This document shows positions 33,003 through 41,243 of a stretch of DNA of 64,000 nt, piece after piece (the first letter of the stretch is position 1; the number at the start of each line of letters is the position of its first letter). The DNA comes from Mucilaginibacter cryoferens (GTDB lineage Bacteria; Bacteroidota; Bacteroidia; Sphingobacteriales; Sphingobacteriaceae): NCBI RefSeq assembly GCF_014205845.1, contig NZ_JACHCR010000014.1, positions 101,086 to 165,085 of the forward strand. The letters are read 5' to 3'. The notes under the pieces are model-generated. The model made no database searches. It was not told where the DNA came from and worked only from the letters and a program-made list of their open reading frames with translations. A program made the translations under genes and the position numbers.

Positions 33003-33142
33003 ACACTAATTACACTAATTGAGGCGAATTTTACGAATTAAAATCCAATTCAATAAAACTCACACGTGGTTTTACCACATTCATGTAATTAGTCTCTCAT
33101 CAAATTCGCGCCCATTCGAAATCATTAGTGAAATTCGTGTCT
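33003..33142. repeat. CACGAAT-type repeats, copies D and E as an inverted pair
   Basis: Copy D (33003-33038) and the longer inverted copy E (33085-33142) flank a small hairpin GTGGT/ACCAC (33066-33078). The pair lies in the promoter region between dtd and the cystathionine gamma-synthase family gene. Confidence 0.78.
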
Positions 33143-33192
33143 ATTTTATTAAGTTCGCAACCGCTAGTATTTTTTTTACTAATAGGTTCAAA

Positions 33193-34428
33193 ATGACAAC
33201 TAAAAGAGGCTTTACAACTACCCTACTACATGCCGACCGCCTTGGCAAGCCCGAGCATGGTTCTTTACATAAACCCATCCACACTTCGGTTACCTATGGC
33301 CACGAGGATGTGCAGGATCTGGTAGATATTTTTCAGAATAAAAAGAAAGGTTACGCTTACTCGCGCCAGGGAAACCCTACGGTTACAGCGCTGGAGCATA
33401 AAGTAACCCAAATGGAAAAGGGCTTATCTTCTATCGCTTTTTCTACCGGAATGGCTGCCATTTCGTCTACCATAATGGCGCTTATTAAACATACAGACCA
33501 TATTGTTGCCAGCTCATTTTTATTTGGTAACAGCCGCAGCATTTTTCAAACCTATATTGATTTAGGTTTGGATATTACCTTTGTTGACGCTACAGATGTT
33601 GAAAATGTACGTGCCGAAATTAAAGATAACACCAAACTGGTATTTGTTGAAACCATAGCCAACCCGGCCACCCAGATTGCCGATCTGGAAGGCATAGGTG
33701 AGCTTTGCAGCCAAAAAGGAATATTGTACGTGGTTGATAACACCATGACATCGCCATACCTGTTCAATCCTATTGATGTAAAAGCAAGTTTGGTAATTAA
33801 CTCGTTAACCAAATATATTGGGGGCCATGGCGATGCCTTGGGCGGCAGTGTTACCGATACTGGCTTGTTTGATTGGAGCGTATATCCAAATATTTTCCCC
33901 AGCTTTAAAGCCCAGGTTAAACCCGAAGCGCTTGGAATGACCCAGGTGCGTAAAAAAGGACTACGTGATGCCGGTGGTACTTTAGCCCCGGAGGCAGCCC
34001 ACACGCTATCTGTAGGTGCCGAAACTTTGGCCTTGCGTTTAGAGCGTGCCTGTAGCAATGCGCTTGCATTGGCTACCTACTTTGAAGGTCATCCAAAAAT
34101 TAAAAAGGTATTTTACCCGGGTCTTGAAGAGCATCCGCAGCATGAACGCGCTGCCAGGCTATTCAGAAAGTTTGGGGGCTTAATGAGTATCGAATTAGAT
34201 GAAAGTATTGATTGCCTTGCATTTTTAAACAAACTGCAATTGGTAGTAAAATCAAGCAACCTGGGCGATACCCGCACGTTGGCTATCCCGGTAGCGCAAA
34301 CTATTTTCTTTGAGCTTGGTGCCGAGCGCCGTGCCGAAATGGGCATCCCGGAAACGATGATCCGCCTATCGGTAGGTATTGAAGACCTGGAAGATCTGGT
34401 TGAGGATTTTAAAGCAGCTCTTGCTTAG
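33193..34428 (+). CDS. Cystathionine gamma-synthase family PLP enzyme
   Basis: A 411-residue Cys/Met-metabolism PLP enzyme. It opens MTTKRGFTTTLLHADRLGKP and contains YSRQGNPTVTALEHKVTQME, FSTGMAAISSTIMALI, VFVETIANPATQIADLEGIG, and the PLP lysine Lys207 in NSLTKYIGGHGDALGGSV. The family includes cystathionine gamma-synthase, O-acetylhomoserine sulfhydrylase and methionine gamma-lyase; sequence alone does not settle which reaction it does. The frame is open 58 codons further up through repeats D and E, which are not coding; the start is 33193. Confidence 0.85.
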   Translation: MTTKRGFTTTLLHADRLGKPEHGSLHKPIHTSVTYGHEDVQDLVDIFQNKKKGYAYSRQGNPTVTALEHKVTQMEKGLSSIAFSTGMAAISSTIMALIKHTDHIVASSFLFGNSRSIFQTYIDLGLDITFVDATDVENVRAEIKDNTKLVFVETIANPATQIADLEGIGELCSQKGILYVVDNTMTSPYLFNPIDVKASLVINSLTKYIGGHGDALGGSVTDTGLFDWSVYPNIFPSFKAQVKPEALGMTQVRKKGLRDAGGTLAPEAAHTLSVGAETLALRLERACSNALALATYFEGHPKIKKVFYPGLEEHPQHERAARLFRKFGGLMSIELDESIDCLAFLNKLQLVVKSSNLGDTRTLAIPVAQTIFFELGAERRAEMGIPETMIRLSVGIEDLEDLVEDFKAALA

Positions 34429-34514: not shown

Positions 34515-35435
34515 CTACGCCCTTGTATCATTCCCATGATAAATGCTCAAATAGCTTTCATAGCGCGATAACTCAATCTCGCCCTCTTCTAAAGCCTCTA
34601 ACACAGCGCAGCCGGGCTCGTTAATATGGCGGCAGTTGTTGAAGCGGCATTGGTTCATACGCGAACGCATTTCGGGGAAAAAGTGGCTTAGTTCGTTTTT
34701 TTCTATGTCGATAACGCCCAGTTCGCGAATGCCGGGGGTATCTATAATGAAACCGCCTTGTGGCAACTCAAACATTTCGGCAAAGGTGGTGGTGTGCATC
34801 CCCTTATCGCTCCATTCTGATACCATGTGGGTGCGTAGGTCGAGATTGGGCAGCAGGGCATTAATAAGGCTTGATTTGCCTACACCGGAGTGGCCGGAAA
34901 ATAAAGTGACTTTATCTTTCAGCAAATCCTGCACGGTGCTGATGTTGGTACCCTCCAATGCTGATACTTCAAAGCAGGGGTAGCCAATTTTTTCGTAAAC
35001 GGCTTTTAGGTCGGCCAGTATTTCCAGGCCTTCGTCGCTAAAAAGATCTACTTTGTTAAAAATGAGCCTTGCGGGTATATCATAGGCTTCGGCAGTAACC
35101 AAAAAGCGATCGATAAAACCTAATGATGTGCGTGGCGAAGCCAGTGTTACCACCAACAGTGCCTGATCCAGGTTAGCGGCTATGATCTGGGCTTGCTTGC
35201 TCAGGTTAATGGCTTTGCGGATAATATAGTTTTTGCGCGGTTGCAGTTTGGTAATTACACCGCTTTCCTGCTCGGGTTCCATTTCAAACTCCACTACGTC
35301 GCCTACGGCTACCGGGTTGGTGGTGGTGATGCCATGCATCCTGAATTTTCCTTTTATCCGGCAATCAATCCTTTGGCCATCGGGTGTTTGCACCTGGTAC
35401 CAGCTTCCTGTCGATTTTATAAGTAGTCCCTGCAT
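34515..35435 (-). CDS. rsgA: Ribosome small-subunit-dependent GTPase A
   Basis: A 306-residue circularly permuted GTPase that checks 30S maturation. N-terminal OB fold (1-70), then G4 FNKVD (126-130), G1 SGHSGVGKSS (180-189) and G3 DTPGIRELG (232-240), in that permuted order, and a C-terminal zinc knuckle with Cys263, Cys268, His270 and Cys276 (NQCRFNNCRHINEPGCAV). All parts are intact. A -7 element lies only 10 bases before the ATG, so the mRNA has almost no leader. Confidence 0.96.
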   Translation of the reverse strand: MQGLLIKSTGSWYQVQTPDGQRIDCRIKGKFRMHGITTTNPVAVGDVVEFEMEPEQESGVITKLQPRKNYIIRKAINLSKQAQIIAANLDQALLVVTLASPRTSLGFIDRFLVTAEAYDIPARLIFNKVDLFSDEGLEILADLKAVYEKIGYPCFEVSALEGTNISTVQDLLKDKVTLFSGHSGVGKSSLINALLPNLDLRTHMVSEWSDKGMHTTTFAEMFELPQGGFIIDTPGIRELGVIDIEKNELSHFFPEMRSRMNQCRFNNCRHINEPGCAVLEALEEGEIELSRYESYLSIYHGNDTRA

Positions 35436-35556: not shown

Positions 35557-36030
35557 TCAATGCTCATAGATGTTGCCAGGCCTATATGTTTTTGTTTGTA
35601 TAAATTCGGGATCTGCTTGGTAGCCTATTGCGTTAACAACCCCATTTTTGGGTCTGAAACGGATATTATGCAGCCTATAGCTATAGGCTCCGTTACTGCA
35701 ATTTATTTGCACGCTAACCACCAAATAAAACGGAATACTTATTAAACCCGGTGCTACATGATATTCAATTATCCCCTGTCTTAAAATATTTGCTTGTACA
35801 CCTTTGCCCTTTATAGTATCGGCCTGCCAGTTTTTAAAATAACTATTGAACCAGGTTTTGGCTTTGCTATCCAATGCGGTGCTATCAGCCCCTTTAACCG
35901 CAATGGTATCTGTATACAACAGTTTACCATTAACTACAGGTAAATTGTACACAATGGTATCTTTACCCTTTTGTGCAAAGCCCGGCCTTATCAGCATCAA
36001 AAACAGTATAAACAGCAGTAACCTTTTCAT
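35557..36030 (-). CDS. DUF4468-like secreted protein
   Basis: A 157-residue protein with a signal peptide (LILFLMLIRPGFAQ-like, cut near residue 20). The mature part fits DUF4468 with a TBP-like fold: VVNGKLLYTDTIAVKGADST, AKTWFNSYFKNWQADTIKGK, and YHVAPGLISIPFYLVVSVQI with YSYRLHNIRFRPKNG. The function is unknown. It is transcribed away from the thr operon. No partner genes. Confidence 0.72.
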   Translation of the reverse strand: MKRLLLFILFLMLIRPGFAQKGKDTIVYNLPVVNGKLLYTDTIAVKGADSTALDSKAKTWFNSYFKNWQADTIKGKGVQANILRQGIIEYHVAPGLISIPFYLVVSVQINCSNGAYSYRLHNIRFRPKNGVVNAIGYQADPEFIQTKTYRPGNIYEH

Positions 36031-36065
36031 AATGTGGGTAATTATATAAAAAATAAAAATAATCC

Positions 36066-36096
36066 TTGCTTATTAAAAAATAATCTATTTACTTTG
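36066..36096 (+). promoter_or_regulatory. thr operon promoter
   Basis: TTG (36066-36068), 20 bases, TTACTTTG (36089-36096): one mismatch from TAnnTTTG. The start site should be near 36103, so the leader-peptide ATG at 36111 lies about 8 bases from the 5' end. Confidence 0.65.
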
Positions 36097-36110
36097 TCGA
36101 CATTATAAGT

Positions 36111-36176
36111 ATGACAGCTAACAACACCATTATTACAACAATTATTACCACCGGCATAAACCCTGGAGGAAGATAA
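36111..36176 (+). CDS. thrL: thr operon leader peptide (attenuator peptide)
   Basis: A 21-codon ORF from ATG at 36111 to TAA at 36174-36176. Six of its codons are Thr and five are Ile (positions 2, 6-14 and 16 of the peptide), with the dense block TIITTIITT at residues 6-14; it ends GINPGGR. This is the amino-acid composition of the E. coli thr leader, although the sequence is not the same. The ORF is followed by a terminator and the thrA start. Its last codons form the 5' arm of the antiterminator. The symbol thrL is by analogy. Confidence 0.88.
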   Translation: MTANNTIITTIITTGINPGGR

Positions 36177-36250
36177 TCGTATGGTGTAAAACATAAACAA
36201 AAGAAACCAAATGAAAGCCTTCCTCCACAAACGGGGAAGGCTTTTTTATT
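36164..36250 (+). promoter_or_regulatory. Threonine attenuator: antiterminator and terminator
   Basis: Terminator: AAAGCCTTCC (36214-36223) pairs with GGAAGGCTTT (36235-36244), two more pairs extend it inward, and Ts follow to 36247. Antiterminator: TGGAGGAAG (36164-36172) is perfectly complementary to CTTCCTCCA (36219-36227), which is the left arm of the terminator. The 36164-36172 arm overlaps the last codons of the leader peptide, so a ribosome reaching the stop codon would cover it and allow termination, while one stalled at Thr/Ile codons would leave it free. Confidence 0.88.
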
Positions 36251-36273
36251 ATTTATACTGCTAAAACCAAACA

Positions 36274-38727
36274 ATGAAAGTTTTAAAATTCGGTGGCACA
36301 TCCGTAGGTTCCGCCGCAAGCATCCAAACTCTTTTAAACATATTAAAAGACGAAGTAAAAAATGAAGACAAGCCGGTTGTTGTATTATCGGCGATGGGCG
36401 GGGTAACCAACCTGCTGGCCTCCATGGCCGAAGACGCCGCTAACTGTAAGGAGTTTACCGCCCAGCTGGCCGAACTGGAAAAACGCCATTTTGATGTAGT
36501 GAAAACACTGCTTGATGTGCAAAACCAAAACCCGGCTTTTACCCGCCTTAAAATTCACTTTAACCAGTTAGAAGAATTACTGCAAGGCATACTAACCCTG
36601 CGCGAGCTTACCCCCAAAACCCGCGACCAGGTGCTTAGCTTCGGCGAGCGTTGCTCTACCATTATGGTGAGCAAAATTGCCGCCCAGCATTTTAAAGAGG
36701 TGTTGTATGTTGATGCTGCCGACGTAATTAAAACCGATAGCGCTTTTGGCAATGCCAAAGTAAACACCGAGCTTACCGAGTTGCTTATCCGCACTTTACA
36801 GCAAGAAAATAAAGACAAGATATTATTTGTTACCGGCTTTATTGCAGGTAACGACGCAGGCCAAACCACCACCTTAGGCAGGGGCGGTTCTGATTATACG
36901 GCGGCCATCTTTGGCGCGGCGCTTAACGTTAAAGAGATCCAGATATGGACCGATGTAAACGGTATGATGACTGCCGACCCGCGCATGGTTAAAAAAGCAT
37001 TCCCGCTAACCGAGCTTACTTATACCGAAGCTATGGAGTTATCTTACTTTGGCGCAAAGGTTATTTATCCGCCAACCATGATCCCGGCCTTTTTAAAGAA
37101 GATCCCTATCGTTATAAAAAACACCTTCGAGCCGGAGTTTGTGGGTACGGTTATCCGTCATGATTGTAAGGCATCAAACCTGCCTATTAAAGGTATCTCG
37201 TCTATCAACAACATCAGCATCCTCAATTTAGAGGGTAGCGGCATGGTTGGTAAATCGGGCTTCAGCGGCAGGTTGTTTTCTTTATTAGCCAGGGAGCAGA
37301 TCAATATCATCCTCATCACGCAATCATCATCAGAGCATAGCATCACCTTCGCGGTACAGCCGCAGGATACCGAGCGGGCCAAACAGGTAATTGAGCAGGA
37401 GTTTGAACTGGAACTTTTGGCAAAAAAACTGGAGCACCTGGTTATAGAGAAAAACCTGGCCATATTGGCTGTAGTAGGCGAAAATATGAAACAAACGCCG
37501 GGCATGTCTGGTAAGTTGTTCCATTCGTTAGGTCGTAATGGTATCAATGTAAGGGCCATTGCGCAGGGTTCATCAGAGTACAATATCTCGGTGATCATTT
37601 CGGCGCAGGACCTTTCAAAAGCATTAAACGCTGTACACGATGCCTTTTTTGTACAGCTTACCAAAACCCTGCATGCGTTTTGCTTAGGTACGGGTAACAT
37701 TGGTAAAACCTTGTTTAACCAGTTAAACGCCCATACCGAATACCTGAAAGAGCACAACGGCATCCAGGTAAAAATTGCAGGTATCAGTAATACCCGCAAA
37801 ATGACTTTTAACAGCGATGGCGTTTCTTTAGATACCTGGCAGGCAGACATAGAGTCGTCGCCATACACTGCCGACCTGAAAGAATTTATTGCCAAAATGA
37901 AGGACATGAATTTGCCTAACTGCGTGTTTATTGATAACACTGCAAGCCCTGTGCCGGTAGGCTTTTATGAAGAGATTTTTAAAGCCAATATATCGGTAAT
38001 TACCTGTAACAAAATAGGTAACTCGGCCAGCTACAAGCAGTACCGCACGTTTAAAGATACCGCCCGCCGTCATGGTGTCGATTTCTTTTACGAAACCAAT
38101 GTGGGGGCTGGTCTGCCTATCATCAATACCTTAAAAAACCTGATGAACAGCGGCGATAGGGTGCAACGTATAGAAGCTATCCTATCGGGCACTATATCTT
38201 TCATCTTCAATAATTTTAAAGGCGATGCCAACTTTCACGATGTGGTAAAAGAAGCACAGGAAAAAGGCTATACCGAACCAGATCCGCGTGATGATTTGAG
38301 TGGAAAGGATTTTATGCGCAAAATGCTCATCCTTGCCCGCGATGCCGGTTATGCTATGGAAGAGGCCGATGTTGATATTGAAAGCGTATTGCCACAAGCA
38401 AGTTTAGAAGCAAAATCTGTAGATGATTTTTATGCAACCCTTAAAACCGAAGACGCCCACTTTGCCAGACTGAAAGACCAGGCCGAAAAAGACGGCAAAG
38501 TATTGCGTTACATAGGCAAACTGGAAAATGGTAAAGTAACCATCACCCTGCAAATGGTTGATGAAAACCATCCGTTCTACATGCTATCCGGCAGCGATAA
38601 CATTATATCATTCACTACCGATAGGTATAAAGAACGCCCGCTGGTTGTAAAAGGCCCAGGCGCAGGTGCCGAGGTTACAGCCGCTGGCGTGTTTGCAGAT
38701 CTGATAAATTTGGGAGTAGCCCCCTAA
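36274..38727 (+). CDS. thrA: Bifunctional aspartate kinase / homoserine dehydrogenase
   Basis: An 817-residue fusion. Aspartate kinase (about 1-290): MKVLKFGGTSVGSAASIQTL and TTLGRGGSDYTAAIFGA; two ACT domains (about 310-455, VGKSGFSGRLFSLLAREQIN and PGMSGKLFHSLGRNGINVRA) that normally bind threonine for feedback; homoserine dehydrogenase (about 465-817): FCLGTGNIGKTLFNQL and the catalytic YTEPDPRDDLSGKDFMRK. First gene of thrABC. The final codons and the stop lie inside a CCCCC...GGGGG palindromic repeat. Confidence 0.97.
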   Translation: MKVLKFGGTSVGSAASIQTLLNILKDEVKNEDKPVVVLSAMGGVTNLLASMAEDAANCKEFTAQLAELEKRHFDVVKTLLDVQNQNPAFTRLKIHFNQLEELLQGILTLRELTPKTRDQVLSFGERCSTIMVSKIAAQHFKEVLYVDAADVIKTDSAFGNAKVNTELTELLIRTLQQENKDKILFVTGFIAGNDAGQTTTLGRGGSDYTAAIFGAALNVKEIQIWTDVNGMMTADPRMVKKAFPLTELTYTEAMELSYFGAKVIYPPTMIPAFLKKIPIVIKNTFEPEFVGTVIRHDCKASNLPIKGISSINNISILNLEGSGMVGKSGFSGRLFSLLAREQINIILITQSSSEHSITFAVQPQDTERAKQVIEQEFELELLAKKLEHLVIEKNLAILAVVGENMKQTPGMSGKLFHSLGRNGINVRAIAQGSSEYNISVIISAQDLSKALNAVHDAFFVQLTKTLHAFCLGTGNIGKTLFNQLNAHTEYLKEHNGIQVKIAGISNTRKMTFNSDGVSLDTWQADIESSPYTADLKEFIAKMKDMNLPNCVFIDNTASPVPVGFYEEIFKANISVITCNKIGNSASYKQYRTFKDTARRHGVDFFYETNVGAGLPIINTLKNLMNSGDRVQRIEAILSGTISFIFNNFKGDANFHDVVKEAQEKGYTEPDPRDDLSGKDFMRKMLILARDAGYAMEEADVDIESVLPQASLEAKSVDDFYATLKTEDAHFARLKDQAEKDGKVLRYIGKLENGKVTITLQMVDENHPFYMLSGSDNIISFTTDRYKERPLVVKGPGAGAEVTAAGVFADLINLGVAP

Positions 38728-38750: not shown

Positions 38751-38804
38751 TATAGTTTGATAGCCCCGCCCCAAAAAGGAGGGGATAGTTTTGATAAATA
38801 TTAT

Positions 38805-39797
38805 ATGGAAGACAATAAGATATTAGAAGTAAACAAACCCTCTTTGGCTCCCCCTTCAGGGGGCGGGGGGGGCTCCATTCACGTTTTTGCTCCGGCTACT
38901 GTTGCCAATGTTGTATGCGGTTTCGATGTATTGGGCTTTGCCGTAAACGCGCCGGGCGACGAGGTAATTATGCGCCTGACCAATAAGCCGGGCATTACGA
39001 TAAGCAAAATTACCGGCGACGATGGCCGTTTACCAATGGACCCGGCTAAAAATACGGTGAGTGTGAGCGTTCAGCATTATTTGCAAAGCGTTGGGCGTAC
39101 CGATATTGGGTTGGATATTGAGCTGCATAAAAAAATGCCTATCGGTAGTGGCCTGGGTTCAAGCTCGGCCAGTACGGTTGCGGGTTTGTTTGCTATAAAA
39201 ACCTTGTTGGGCGATGATAGCGACGCAGCTAAGTTATTACCTTTTGCCATGAAAGGCGAGGAAATGGCTTGCGGACATGGGCATGCCGATAACGTGGCGC
39301 CTGCATTATTGGGTGGTTTTGTGCTCATCCGTAGTTACGAACCTTTGGATGTGGTGCGTTTGCCGCATCCGGAAAATTTATGGTGTGCCATAGTATTCCC
39401 AGATGTAGATGTGCCTACAAGAGAAGCCCGCCAGATCATCCGCAAAAACATCCAGATGAAGGATGCCGTAACCCAGTGGGGTAACATAGCAGGCCTGGTA
39501 AGCGGTTTGTTTATGAACGATATTGACCTGATAGGCCGCAGTATGAAAGATGTACTGGTAGAGCCGGTACGCTCTATGCTTATACCCGATTTTTACAAAA
39601 TGCGCGAAATGGCCATGGAATTGGGCGCGGTAAGCTTTGGTATCTCCGGCTCTGGTCCGTCGGTTTTTGCCTTTACTAAAGATGAAGATACCGCGCACCG
39701 CATCACCCAAAAATTACAAAAGCATTTAACAGGTTTAAAAATTGGCTCTAATGGCTATGTATCAACCATAAATGATGCAGGGCCGAGGGTGTTATAA
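38805..39797 (+). CDS. thrB: Homoserine kinase with repeat-derived N-terminal extension
   Basis: A 330-residue GHMP kinase that phosphorylates homoserine. The normal protein begins at HVFAPATVANVVCGFDVLGF; ATP-binding loop KMPIGSGLGSSSASTVAGLF, and SFGISGSGPSVFAFT near the end. Before this core are 24 extra residues, MEDNKILEVNKPSLAPPSGG followed by GGGS, of which the Pro/Gly part is translated from the second C/G-rich palindrome (38844-38877). No ATG lies at the usual position, where the codons are Ser-Ile-His, so the nearest ATG is 38805. An ATT start at 38876 cannot be excluded. Confidence 0.92.
   Translation: MEDNKILEVNKPSLAPPSGGGGGSIHVFAPATVANVVCGFDVLGFAVNAPGDEVIMRLTNKPGITISKITGDDGRLPMDPAKNTVSVSVQHYLQSVGRTDIGLDIELHKKMPIGSGLGSSSASTVAGLFAIKTLLGDDSDAAKLLPFAMKGEEMACGHGHADNVAPALLGGFVLIRSYEPLDVVRLPHPENLWCAIVFPDVDVPTREARQIIRKNIQMKDAVTQWGNIAGLVSGLFMNDIDLIGRSMKDVLVEPVRSMLIPDFYKMREMAMELGAVSFGISGSGPSVFAFTKDEDTAHRITQKLQKHLTGLKIGSNGYVSTINDAGPRVL
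38844..38877. repeat. C/G-rich palindromic repeat inside thrB
   Basis: Inverted copy of the element at 38716-38750 (TTGGCTCCCCCTTCAGGGGG and more Gs after it). It is read in frame as SLAPPSGGGGGS. Confidence 0.85.
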
Positions 39798-39808
39798 GCC
39801 TCACCCAA

Positions 39809-39886
39809 CCCTCTCCAAAGGAGAGGGCTTTAAAAACAAAGTTCAAAAAACGACCTAATCCGTTCGTACCTCGCAATGACGAACGG
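39809..39886 (+). repeat. Two palindromes in the thrB-thrC gap
   Basis: CCCTCTCC (39809-39816)/GGAGAGGG (39820-39827) with a 3-base loop, then CCGTTCGT (39860-39867)/ACGAACGG (39879-39886). The first has the look of a dispersed element of this genome type; the second resembles the GACGAACG motif at 61290. Neither has a proper U-run, so thrC is probably still in the operon. Confidence 0.7.
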
Positions 39887-39899
39887 AAAAATAAATAAA

Positions 39900-39932
39900 T
39901 CCGAAATCGAAATTCCGAAATCCGAAATCAAA
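39900..39932. repeat. Seven-base periodic repeat in front of thrC
   Basis: Units ATCCGAA, ATCGAAA, TTCCGAA, ATCCGAA, ATCAAAA end directly at the thrC ATG. The first 21 bases equal the complement of the array after pdhC. Confidence 0.75.
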
Positions 39933-41243
39933 ATGAAACTCTACAGTACCAATAACACCTTATCAGAAGTATCTTTTAAAGACGCGGTTTTTAACAGCAT
40001 GCCGCAGGATAAAGGTTTATATATGCCTATCAGCATCCCGCGTTTAAGTGACGATTTTATCAGCAACCTGGATAAGTATACTTTGCCGGAGATTGCTTTC
40101 GAAGTGGCAAAAAACCTTTTGGGCGATGCCATGCCTGCCGACGATCTGAAGGCTTTAATAGATGATGCCATCAACTTTGATGCACCCGTTGTAAAGCTGG
40201 ACGATAACGTGCATGTGCTGGAACTTTTCCACGGGCCATCCCTCGCGTTTAAAGATTTTGGCGCCCGCTTTATGAGCCGGGTAATGAGCTATTTTTTAGA
40301 GGACGGCGAAAAACAGCTGGATGTGTTGGTTGCTACCAGTGGAGATACCGGCGGAGCAGTAGCCCTGGGCTTCTTAGGTGTACCCAACACCCGTGTTACT
40401 ATCTTATACCCTAAAGGCAAAGTAAGCGGCGTGCAGGAGCAGCAATTAACCACCAATGGCCAAAACATCCGTGCTTTGGAGGTTGAGGGTACTTTTGATG
40501 ATTGCCAGGCCCTGGTTAAACAGGCTTTTACCGATGCTGAACTGAATGAAAAATTCCGTTTAACATCCGCCAACTCTATTAATATTGCCCGTTTGGTACC
40601 GCAAACATTCTACTACTTTAATGCTTATGCGCAATTATTAAGGCAGGGTGTTAAAAAGGTAATCTTCTCGGTACCCAGCGGTAACTTCGGTAACATTGGT
40701 GCAGGTTTGCTGGCCTGGAAAATGGGCTTGCCCGTAGAGAAATTTATAGCAGCTACCAATGCCAATGATACCGTGCCAGAGTTTTTAAAAACCGGCGTTT
40801 ATCAGCCTAAGCCATCTGTAGCAACCCTGTCAAATGCGATGGACGTAGGCAACCCAAGCAACTGGGTACGTATTGCCGATCTGTTTAAAGCGGATATGGA
40901 AGCTCTTAAAAATCTGGTTATAGGTTTTAAATATGATGATGCCGAAACGGTGAAAGCCATTAACTGGGTGTTTGATACTTATGGCTATGTAGTTTGCCCG
41001 CATACAGCCATTGCCTGGCAGGCCCTAACAGATTATCAGCACGATCATGCGAGCGCAGATACCGCCGGTGTATTTTTATCAACCGCCCATCCCTGCAAGT
41101 TCCCTGATGTTTTTAGCGACGAAATAACCGCCAAAATTGATGTGCCTGCACAGGTAAAGGAATTGGAATCAAAAACTAAACTGGCTATAGCCATAAGCAA
41201 AGATTTTGAAGATTTTAAAGGCTATTTGCTGAACGCGAAATAG
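39933..41243 (+). CDS. thrC: Threonine synthase
   Basis: A 436-residue PLP enzyme that converts phosphohomoserine to threonine. It begins MKLYSTNNTLSEVSFKDAVF; PLP lysine in HGPSLAFKDFGARFM; glycine loop TSGDTGGAVALGFLG; and later SGNFGNIGAGLLAWKMGLP, all standard. An in-frame ATG 19 codons upstream would add residues coded by the heptad repeat, so I choose 39933. Third gene of the thr operon; a palindromic hairpin follows. Confidence 0.96.
   Translation: MKLYSTNNTLSEVSFKDAVFNSMPQDKGLYMPISIPRLSDDFISNLDKYTLPEIAFEVAKNLLGDAMPADDLKALIDDAINFDAPVVKLDDNVHVLELFHGPSLAFKDFGARFMSRVMSYFLEDGEKQLDVLVATSGDTGGAVALGFLGVPNTRVTILYPKGKVSGVQEQQLTTNGQNIRALEVEGTFDDCQALVKQAFTDAELNEKFRLTSANSINIARLVPQTFYYFNAYAQLLRQGVKKVIFSVPSGNFGNIGAGLLAWKMGLPVEKFIAATNANDTVPEFLKTGVYQPKPSVATLSNAMDVGNPSNWVRIADLFKADMEALKNLVIGFKYDDAETVKAINWVFDTYGYVVCPHTAIAWQALTDYQHDHASADTAGVFLSTAHPCKFPDVFSDEITAKIDVPAQVKELESKTKLAIAISKDFEDFKGYLLNAK

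Follow-up and report, generated by a model that had tools for sequence, protein, structure and literature searches.

A Thr/Ile Leader Peptide in Front of thrABC of Mucilaginibacter cryoferens: A Very Probable Transcription Attenuator Conserved in Sphingobacteriaceae

Introduction

In the classical model of trp and his attenuation, as sections of PMC1183508 describe it, the control codons lie in region I of the leader, I pairs with II, and the pairings II:III and III:IV exclude each other. The enterobacterial thr attenuator follows this logic with a terminator located before thrA, and in Escherichia coli (thrL 190–255; Rfam RF00506) a 21-codon Thr/Ile leader precedes an operon encoding a fused ThrA. 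For Bacteroidota, the attenuation encountered in the literature searched was limited to the Bacteroid-trp motif of Rfam (RF01692), which Table 1 of PMC2864571 lists, and to a passage of PMC7366714 that notes in general terms small ORFs resembling leader peptides. In that search, whose hits were covered in part, a thr attenuator of this phylum was not the subject of any paper. Lopatovskaya et al. 2010 (PMID 20198868; cited in PMC4833913) may, to go by its title, cover such an attenuator, and hence no priority is claimed here.

Here we describe an element that is very probably a ribosome-mediated transcription attenuator before thrABC of M. cryoferens, sensing charged tRNA-Thr and, probably, tRNA-Ile. 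Mucilaginibacter is a genus of Sphingobacteriaceae; the host is a soil bacterium, and its group of bacteria does not use Shine-Dalgarno-led initiation. The stretch of DNA that was analyzed, which we call the window, is 64,000 nucleotides long.

The element resembles the E. coli thr attenuator in its 21-codon Thr/Ile leader, operon type, fused ThrA, terminator before thrA, and logic, but differs in the sequences of the arms. Its leader mixes ACA/ACC with ATT codons, whereas thrL of E. coli has eight ACC according to the same sections of PMC1183508. With Bacteroid-trp it shares the peptide leader, the terminator, and the phylum; Bacteroid-trp, however, carries Trp codons in another sequence and constitutes a separate family. 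Predicted control codons in region I, a I:II pairing, and exclusive II:III and III:IV pairings correspond to the trp/his model, in contrast to which region II here lies partly behind the stop codon and serves both the 1:2 hairpin and an extension of the antiterminator. The architecture is that of classical attenuation, a known kind of switch.

Results and Discussion

Leader Anatomy and the Operon behind It

The element and the genes that follow it consist of these parts:

36066–36096, + strand: promoter-like pair of the Bacteroidota type (TTTG/TAnnTTTG), TTG (36066–36068) and TTACTTTG (36089–36096)
36111–36176, + strand: leader ORF of 21 codons, MTANNTIITTIITTGINPGGR (ATG at 36111, TAA ending at 36176), from the ORF reading and third-position variation in 83 distinct Mucilaginibacter ORFs
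36124–36154, + strand: segment 1, 5′ strand of the protector hairpin with its outer helix at 36124–36130, from the minimum-energy structure and two-sided changes
36138–36146, + strand: predicted control codons 10–12 (ACA ATT ATT; Thr-Ile-Ile), from the ribosome-mask model
36163–36187, + strand: segment 2, with the antiterminator strand (36164–36172) and a post-stop strand (36181–36187)
36206–36209, + strand: ACCA, the antiterminator extension, pairing with UGGU at 36182–36185
36213–36249, + strand: intrinsic terminator, a stem (36213–36245) and then a U-rich tail
36219–36227, + strand: segment 3, CTTCCTCCA, common to antiterminator and terminator
36274–38727, + strand: thrA, fused aspartate kinase/homoserine dehydrogenase I (NCBIfam NF006959, 1046.5 bits, cutoff 726; Pfam)
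38757–39797, + strand: thrB, homoserine kinase (NCBIfam thrB above cutoff), given as the ORF from the first TTG, the true start being probably further in
39876–41243, + strand: thrC, threonine synthase (NCBIfam TIGR00260 above cutoff)

The leader ORF contains 6 Thr and 5 Ile codons, and TGGAGGAAG (36164–36172) near its end is the exact reverse complement of segment 3. A preliminary description, made from the letters of this DNA, had reported both a 21-codon ORF of this composition followed by a terminator and the nine-base complementarity, and both are borne out. The terminator scan gave 13 pairs and a U-rich tail at 36213–36245. The fold of 36210–36252 has −19.5 kcal/mol (z = −5.46), and that of the leader 36103–36252 has −35.7 kcal/mol (z = −4.61). 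In the minimum-energy structure without a ribosome, the 1:2 protector helix (36124–36130 with 36181–36187) is formed alongside the terminator. The antiterminator by itself folds with −21 kcal/mol, and it includes a second helix between 36182–36185 and 36206–36209. As the first half of the ORF pairs with the post-stop stretch, 1:2, 2:3, and 3:4 make up the usual design. Upstream, the neighbors of the attenuator are a PLP enzyme of Cys/Met metabolism (33019–34428) and an RsgA GTPase (34515–35435).

Chance was evaluated within the window. The leader ORF is the sole instance with Thr plus Ile at 11 or more of 21 among 1301 small ORFs (15–30 codons, any ATG/GTG/TTG start, both strands), and a nine-base complement to 36213–36227 was reached by 9 of 20,000 mononucleotide shuffles of 36111–36210. 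The generic terminator scan proves nothing alone, since it gave 8 sites in the 36.5 kb-scale context versus 7.8 in shuffles; the stem at 36213–36245 is the longest by far among its sites.

The TTG-N20-TTACTTTG pair, which ends 14 bases before the leader ATG, is of the promoter type TTTG/TAnnTTTG that a section of PMC7366714 gives as the Bacteroidota consensus. Going by its position, the transcript would start approximately 8 bases before the ATG. A loose form of the motif lies upstream of the leader start in 128 of the 149 distinct family leaders with enough sequence, a count made without a chance control, and its distance to the start is mostly 12 or 14 nt; in 29 leaders it is 26–31 nt, and in one it is 0. 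The transcript may thus be almost leaderless here, but this is no rule in the family; the same section of PMC7366714 puts the share of 5′ UTRs below 10 nt in B. thetaiotaomicron at approximately 3.7%.

Similarity to Known RNA Families

The window contains no Rfam family at cutoff. RF00506 (Thr_leader) matched 36121–36250 with 33.8 bits (E = 8.5e-5), which is under its gathering cutoff of 55, and it was the best of 16 Rfam matches obtained on 36000–36320 with E up to 10, none of which was a T-box or an amino acid riboswitch. RF01692 (cutoff 49 bits) gave no match in the window, on 36000–36320 up to E 10, or, with E ≤ 0.001, anywhere in the genome to which the window belongs. In other Mucilaginibacter genomes, sub-cutoff RF01692 matches (45.1–48.6 bits) with WWW leaders were found at five loci (L100–L104; 5 of 41 genomes searched, all Mucilaginibacter), and the gene behind L102 is trpD.

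A model built from the family thr leader, R1, scored E. coli thrL with 42.4 bits and a His leader with a terminator (L286) with 55.2 bits. Homology with the E. coli leader was considered in view of these cross-matching models and was set aside; because R1 also matches the His leader, shared design or convergence is enough to account for the likeness. The preliminary description had assigned the E. coli attenuator the same logic with unrelated sequence. The logic agrees, and "unrelated" is half right, given the 21 codons of both leaders, the sub-cutoff RF00506 match, and the R1 score of thrL.

Conservation in the Family

Upstream regions of 184 full ThrA genes were collected from genomes of the same family, comprising 34 regions, 70 of 119 places, and 80 loci (the best 80 of 329); one locus (L039) was left out since its contig ends inside the gene. 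The source sets overlap and contain 152 distinct leaders, or 151 without L053. By fixed criteria, a Thr/Ile ORF was present in 182/184, a U-tract hairpin in 184/184, and both in 182/184, and a joint test, which demands these two and also that the end of the ORF form six or more base pairs with the terminator arm, was passed by 174/184. One dinucleotide shuffle of each region gave 7/184 for the ORF, 2/184 for the hairpin, and 0/184 both for the two together and for the joint test. The ten that failed are L030, L044, L045, L047, L048, L066, L068, L069, L139, and L141, of which L139 and L141 drop out solely because their ORFs scored too low at the outset. L053, counted within the 174, was judged to be a false positive. 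Its ThrA (genome G097, same family) is just 48% identical, and its leader looks like the second type described below and ends in TPWGV as in other families, which would fit a replacement of thrA.

The ORF varies in the manner of a coding sequence. In codons 6–15 of the 83 distinct Mucilaginibacter ORFs, the entropy is 0.21, 0.54, and 1.04 at codon positions 1–3, and 52 of the 84 single-base codon contrasts are synonymous. Thr and Ile codons, whose order varies, chiefly make up codons 7–12. Codons 13 (ACC, 82/83), 14 (ACC, 75/83), 19 (GGA, 80/83), and 20 (GGA, 82/83) are near-fixed as nucleotides, as pairing duties would demand.

Coordinated Change of the Helices

The antiterminator strand and the terminator arm are swapped jointly. 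TGGAGGAAG/CTTCCTCCA of the window is represented elsewhere by CGGGGC/GTCCCG and TGGGGG/CCCCCA, and further pairs in other genera are ATCGGGAGC/GCTCCCGAT and CGGGAAGGT/GCCTTCCCG. That the ORF end and both arms of the terminator have been exchanged together in separate genera is the strongest evidence. A requirement for the Shine-Dalgarno-like GGAGG was considered and rejected, as other genera have CGGGGC, TGGGGG, or CGGGAGC in its place and a terminator arm altered correspondingly. For 1:2, the best helix is ACACCAT/ATGGTGT in the window and GCACCAT/ATGGTGC, TTACAACAA/TTGTTGTAA, or TATTACAACAT/ATGTTGTAATA elsewhere, where the best helix found per sequence was compared with no fixed positions.

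Own partners were evaluated against permuted ones. The 2:3 energy was −15.85 versus −14.27 over all leaders (0/300) and −14.67 versus −11.83 in other genera (0/2000), and the 1:2 helix score was 15.27 versus 14.60 (0/300) and 14.37 versus 13.22 (0/5000), respectively. Leaders with the common arm (n = 125) gave −16.42 kcal/mol with their own arm and those with other arms (n = 26) gave −13.15; crossing the two groups resulted in −9.30 and −11.18 kcal/mol. Of the 26 distinct changed-arm leaders, 14 pair better with their own arm than with at least 90% of other arms, whereas for 10 leaders at least one third of the other arms pair equally well or better. Segment 1 of other genera pairs with segment 2 of Mucilaginibacter (14.64) as well as with its own (14.37).

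An alignment (A2) of 56 of the 151 distinct leaders, chosen for diversity, was used for covariation. Because 1:2, 2:3, and 3:4 compete, the named structures were counted on it; the consensus that RNAalifold computed from it contained no helix other than the terminator. Terminator plus 1:2 had 83.5% of cells paired and a covariation of 0.301 versus 0.201 shuffled, and antiterminator plus extension had 72.9% and 0.181 versus 0.125 (each 0/500 and above all slides), in a test whose structure was derived from one aligned sequence and whose shuffles relatedness alone can beat. Paired cells amounted to 91.7% for the terminator, 70.5% for 1:2, 75.6% for 2:3, and 66.8% for the 2:3 extension. Two-sided changes were found at 7 of 11 counted pairs of the terminator, 4 of 7 of the 1:2 outer helix, and 3 of 4 of the extension; coordinated change is thereby seen in terminator, antiterminator, and 1:2. 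The numbers of double-change pairs and of pair types were ordinary (79 and 173 of 500 for terminator plus 1:2; 171 and 72 of 500 for the antiterminator).

The preliminary description had proposed a peptide-controlled attenuator in which the ORF end serves as the antiterminator strand, and the relatives support this; its suggested check, a search of relatives for Thr/Ile-rich small ORFs and for compensatory changes, was largely passed, with 174/184 loci and helices that change on both sides. It had also allowed for only one alternative pairing. This must be corrected, because the protector helix 1:2 is in the minimum-energy structure with two-sided changes in relatives, and a second antiterminator helix exists as well.

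Proposed Mechanism

When no ribosome is present, the protector hairpin 1:2 would form and the terminator 3:4 would stop transcription near 36247. If Thr or Ile is scarce, a ribosome translating the leader would wait at approximately codons 10–12 and cover the 5′ strand of 1:2. Segment 2 would then be left free, 2:3 would form, and the polymerase would continue into thrABC. Termination in vivo and its response to the amino acids are expected on this basis, and both Thr and Ile may be sensed.

These states were computed with an equilibrium masking model and an assumed 30-nt ribosome footprint. For transcripts to 36247, the terminator had 0.99 without a ribosome or with a ribosome at the stop codon. 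The antiterminator had 0.06, 0.68, 0.91, 0.45, 0.26, and 0.00 when the A site was at codons 9, 10, 11, 12, 13, and 14, respectively. The model thus predicts that the antiterminator can compete only when a ribosome is at approximately codons 10–12 (Thr-Ile-Ile), and that stalling at Ile16 would not relieve termination. For a transcript to 36230, the antiterminator had 0.97 even without a ribosome at equilibrium, which means that the order of formation matters: either 1:2 is formed first or the pairings rearrange.

The locus shows a short, putatively translated ORF rich in codons for the operon product (182/184 by the ORF score, with codon-like variation), an intrinsic terminator before the first gene as judged by sequence and structure, and a mutually exclusive antiterminator overlapping the ORF end. 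It also shows a protector hairpin 1:2, with reservations on the specificity of its partners.

Alternative Explanations

A simpler switch, as drawn in the preliminary description, would have antiterminator and terminator alternate in the absence of any protector hairpin. That the antiterminator, with −21 kcal/mol alone, prevails in transcripts to 36230 with or without a ribosome is what such a switch would give, and so is the equal pairing of segment 1 from other genera with segment 2 of Mucilaginibacter. However, 1:2 is part of the minimum-energy structure, 4 of its 7 pairs show two-sided changes, and outside Mucilaginibacter its own partners beat all permuted ones (0/5000). An untranslated leader lacking 1:2 would, moreover, read through. 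We consider the simpler switch very unlikely, and the attenuator with a protector hairpin is preferred.

A strong stem and a U-rich tail before thrA could also belong to a plain terminator that insulates thrA or yields a small RNA, the ORF then being unconnected to control. The Thr/Ile codons of the ORF are kept, however, its third positions change mostly synonymously, and where its end and the terminator arm have been replaced they still complement each other, which together leave this explanation hardly any room. Direct sensing of tRNA or threonine by a T-box or an amino acid riboswitch shares with the locus the position and the terminator only. What is conserved is a set of codons and pairing arms, not an aptamer, and Rfam gave no T-box or amino acid riboswitch match in the window at cutoff or on 36000–36320 to E 10; this explanation is the least credible of all.

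Thr and His Leaders of a Second Type

Outside the family, a different picture was observed. In the class sample, full-length-type ThrA (E ≤ 1e−180) occurs in 40 of 198 genomes, and the joint test was passed by 1 of 34 upstream regions (L113), perhaps accidentally. L105, whose ThrA is 62% identical, has by eye a similar terminator and GGAGG with a Thr-poor ORF, and scored 33.7 bits with R1. The joint test was passed by 5 of 30 loci of family f15 and by 0 of 30 of family f33; in f15, L226, L227, and L230 are by eye of the terminator type, and L243 and L248 carry a stop-codon hairpin.

Thr-rich thrA leaders with no U tract are seen in f15 (L234, L236, L239, L240, L242–L248, L250–L252, and L255), where the leaders end at a small hairpin over or beside their own stop codon, e.g., ACGGG-GTAAT-CCCGT. 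Those in f33 (L256–L261, L264, L266, L267, L270, L273, and L280) likewise end at a hairpin, e.g., ACCC-TTAG-GGGT, mostly followed by GGATAGT and a conserved TCTACGYGA hairpin, a motif also present in the Mucilaginibacter hisG leader. Alignments of 15 and 10 loci gave an f33 consensus of −10.49 kcal/mol with two hairpins and an f15 consensus of −1.93 with three pairs; since the latter has only three pairs, it is the hairpins of individual loci that speak for f15. In Rfam searches, ten loci had nothing at cutoff, and for fourteen the only matches were microRNA models on one repeat in L107.

At Mucilaginibacter hisG, a leader ORF with at least five His is present in 8 of 9 loci (the partial locus L298 left out), and the finder detected a U-tract hairpin in 0 of these 9, versus 3 of 3 loci from other families. 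The hisG leader of the window genome (L291; contig C28, near 46900) is the His-rich MNGIALHHLHLHHHHVVIS with no U-tract terminator, as also observed at L290 and L294–L297; it has a hairpin at the ORF end and a TTTCTACGCGAAA hairpin. Its start, AUGAACGG, can pair with CCGUUUAU, and both strands of this pairing are altered in step in L290, where they read AUGAUCGG and CCGAUUUAU. The pattern TTTCTACGYGAAA was discarded as a genome-wide element, for it was found at 9 places in 8 of 13 genomes versus 8 places for the reversed control pattern; its position is telling, with 6 of the 9 places beside hisG by coordinates.

It is conceivable, if on balance rather doubtful, that two or more peptide switches of distinct structure control the thr operons of Bacteroidota, the classical terminator-based one in this family and often a terminator-less one in other families of the class, with a comparable terminator-less leader at hisG of the window genome. 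Such a second design, if true, would add to the leader-peptide mechanisms one that Rfam lacks, acting perhaps via Rho, pausing, or translation control.

Wider Use of Leader Peptides and Implications

Of 296 genomes of the phylum searched with R1, 79 contained a match with E ≤ 0.01. At the 12 loci inspected outside the family (L332–L343), a leader-like run fitting the downstream gene was recognized in 11, L343 being the exception; at L333, L335, and L342 the run was read by eye, with no start codon in the stretch. Family models confirmed the downstream genes as ilvE (L332), ilvD (L334), tyrA (L336), ilvA (L340), acetolactate synthase small subunit (L335), and, behind the R1 match L346, ilvE; at the other six loci the gene was assigned by sequence likeness. 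L332–L342, L346, and L347 carry leader-like runs with terminators in other Bacteroidota families, Ile-rich before ilvE, ilvD, ilvA, or acetolactate synthase small subunit, and tyrA of another family has a Tyr/Phe-rich run with a terminator upstream. The window's own genome has 7 R1 matches at E ≤ 0.1, of which the two following thr, L344 and L345 (41.7 and 36.5 bits), resemble plain terminators; a weak ORF of 19 codons (3 Thr, 4 Ile) is present at L344, with no recognized biosynthetic gene behind it. Upstream regions of ilvD at 16 loci contained no convincing leader by a crude score.

As R1 finds Ile- and Tyr/Phe-rich leaders, attenuation may be a common control of amino acid synthesis in Bacteroidota. 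The element described here would provide this phylum with a thr attenuator that has comparative support, for which stalling at codons 10–12 and sensing of both Thr and Ile are predicted, and the stalling would take place in bacteria whose initiation is not led by Shine-Dalgarno sequences.
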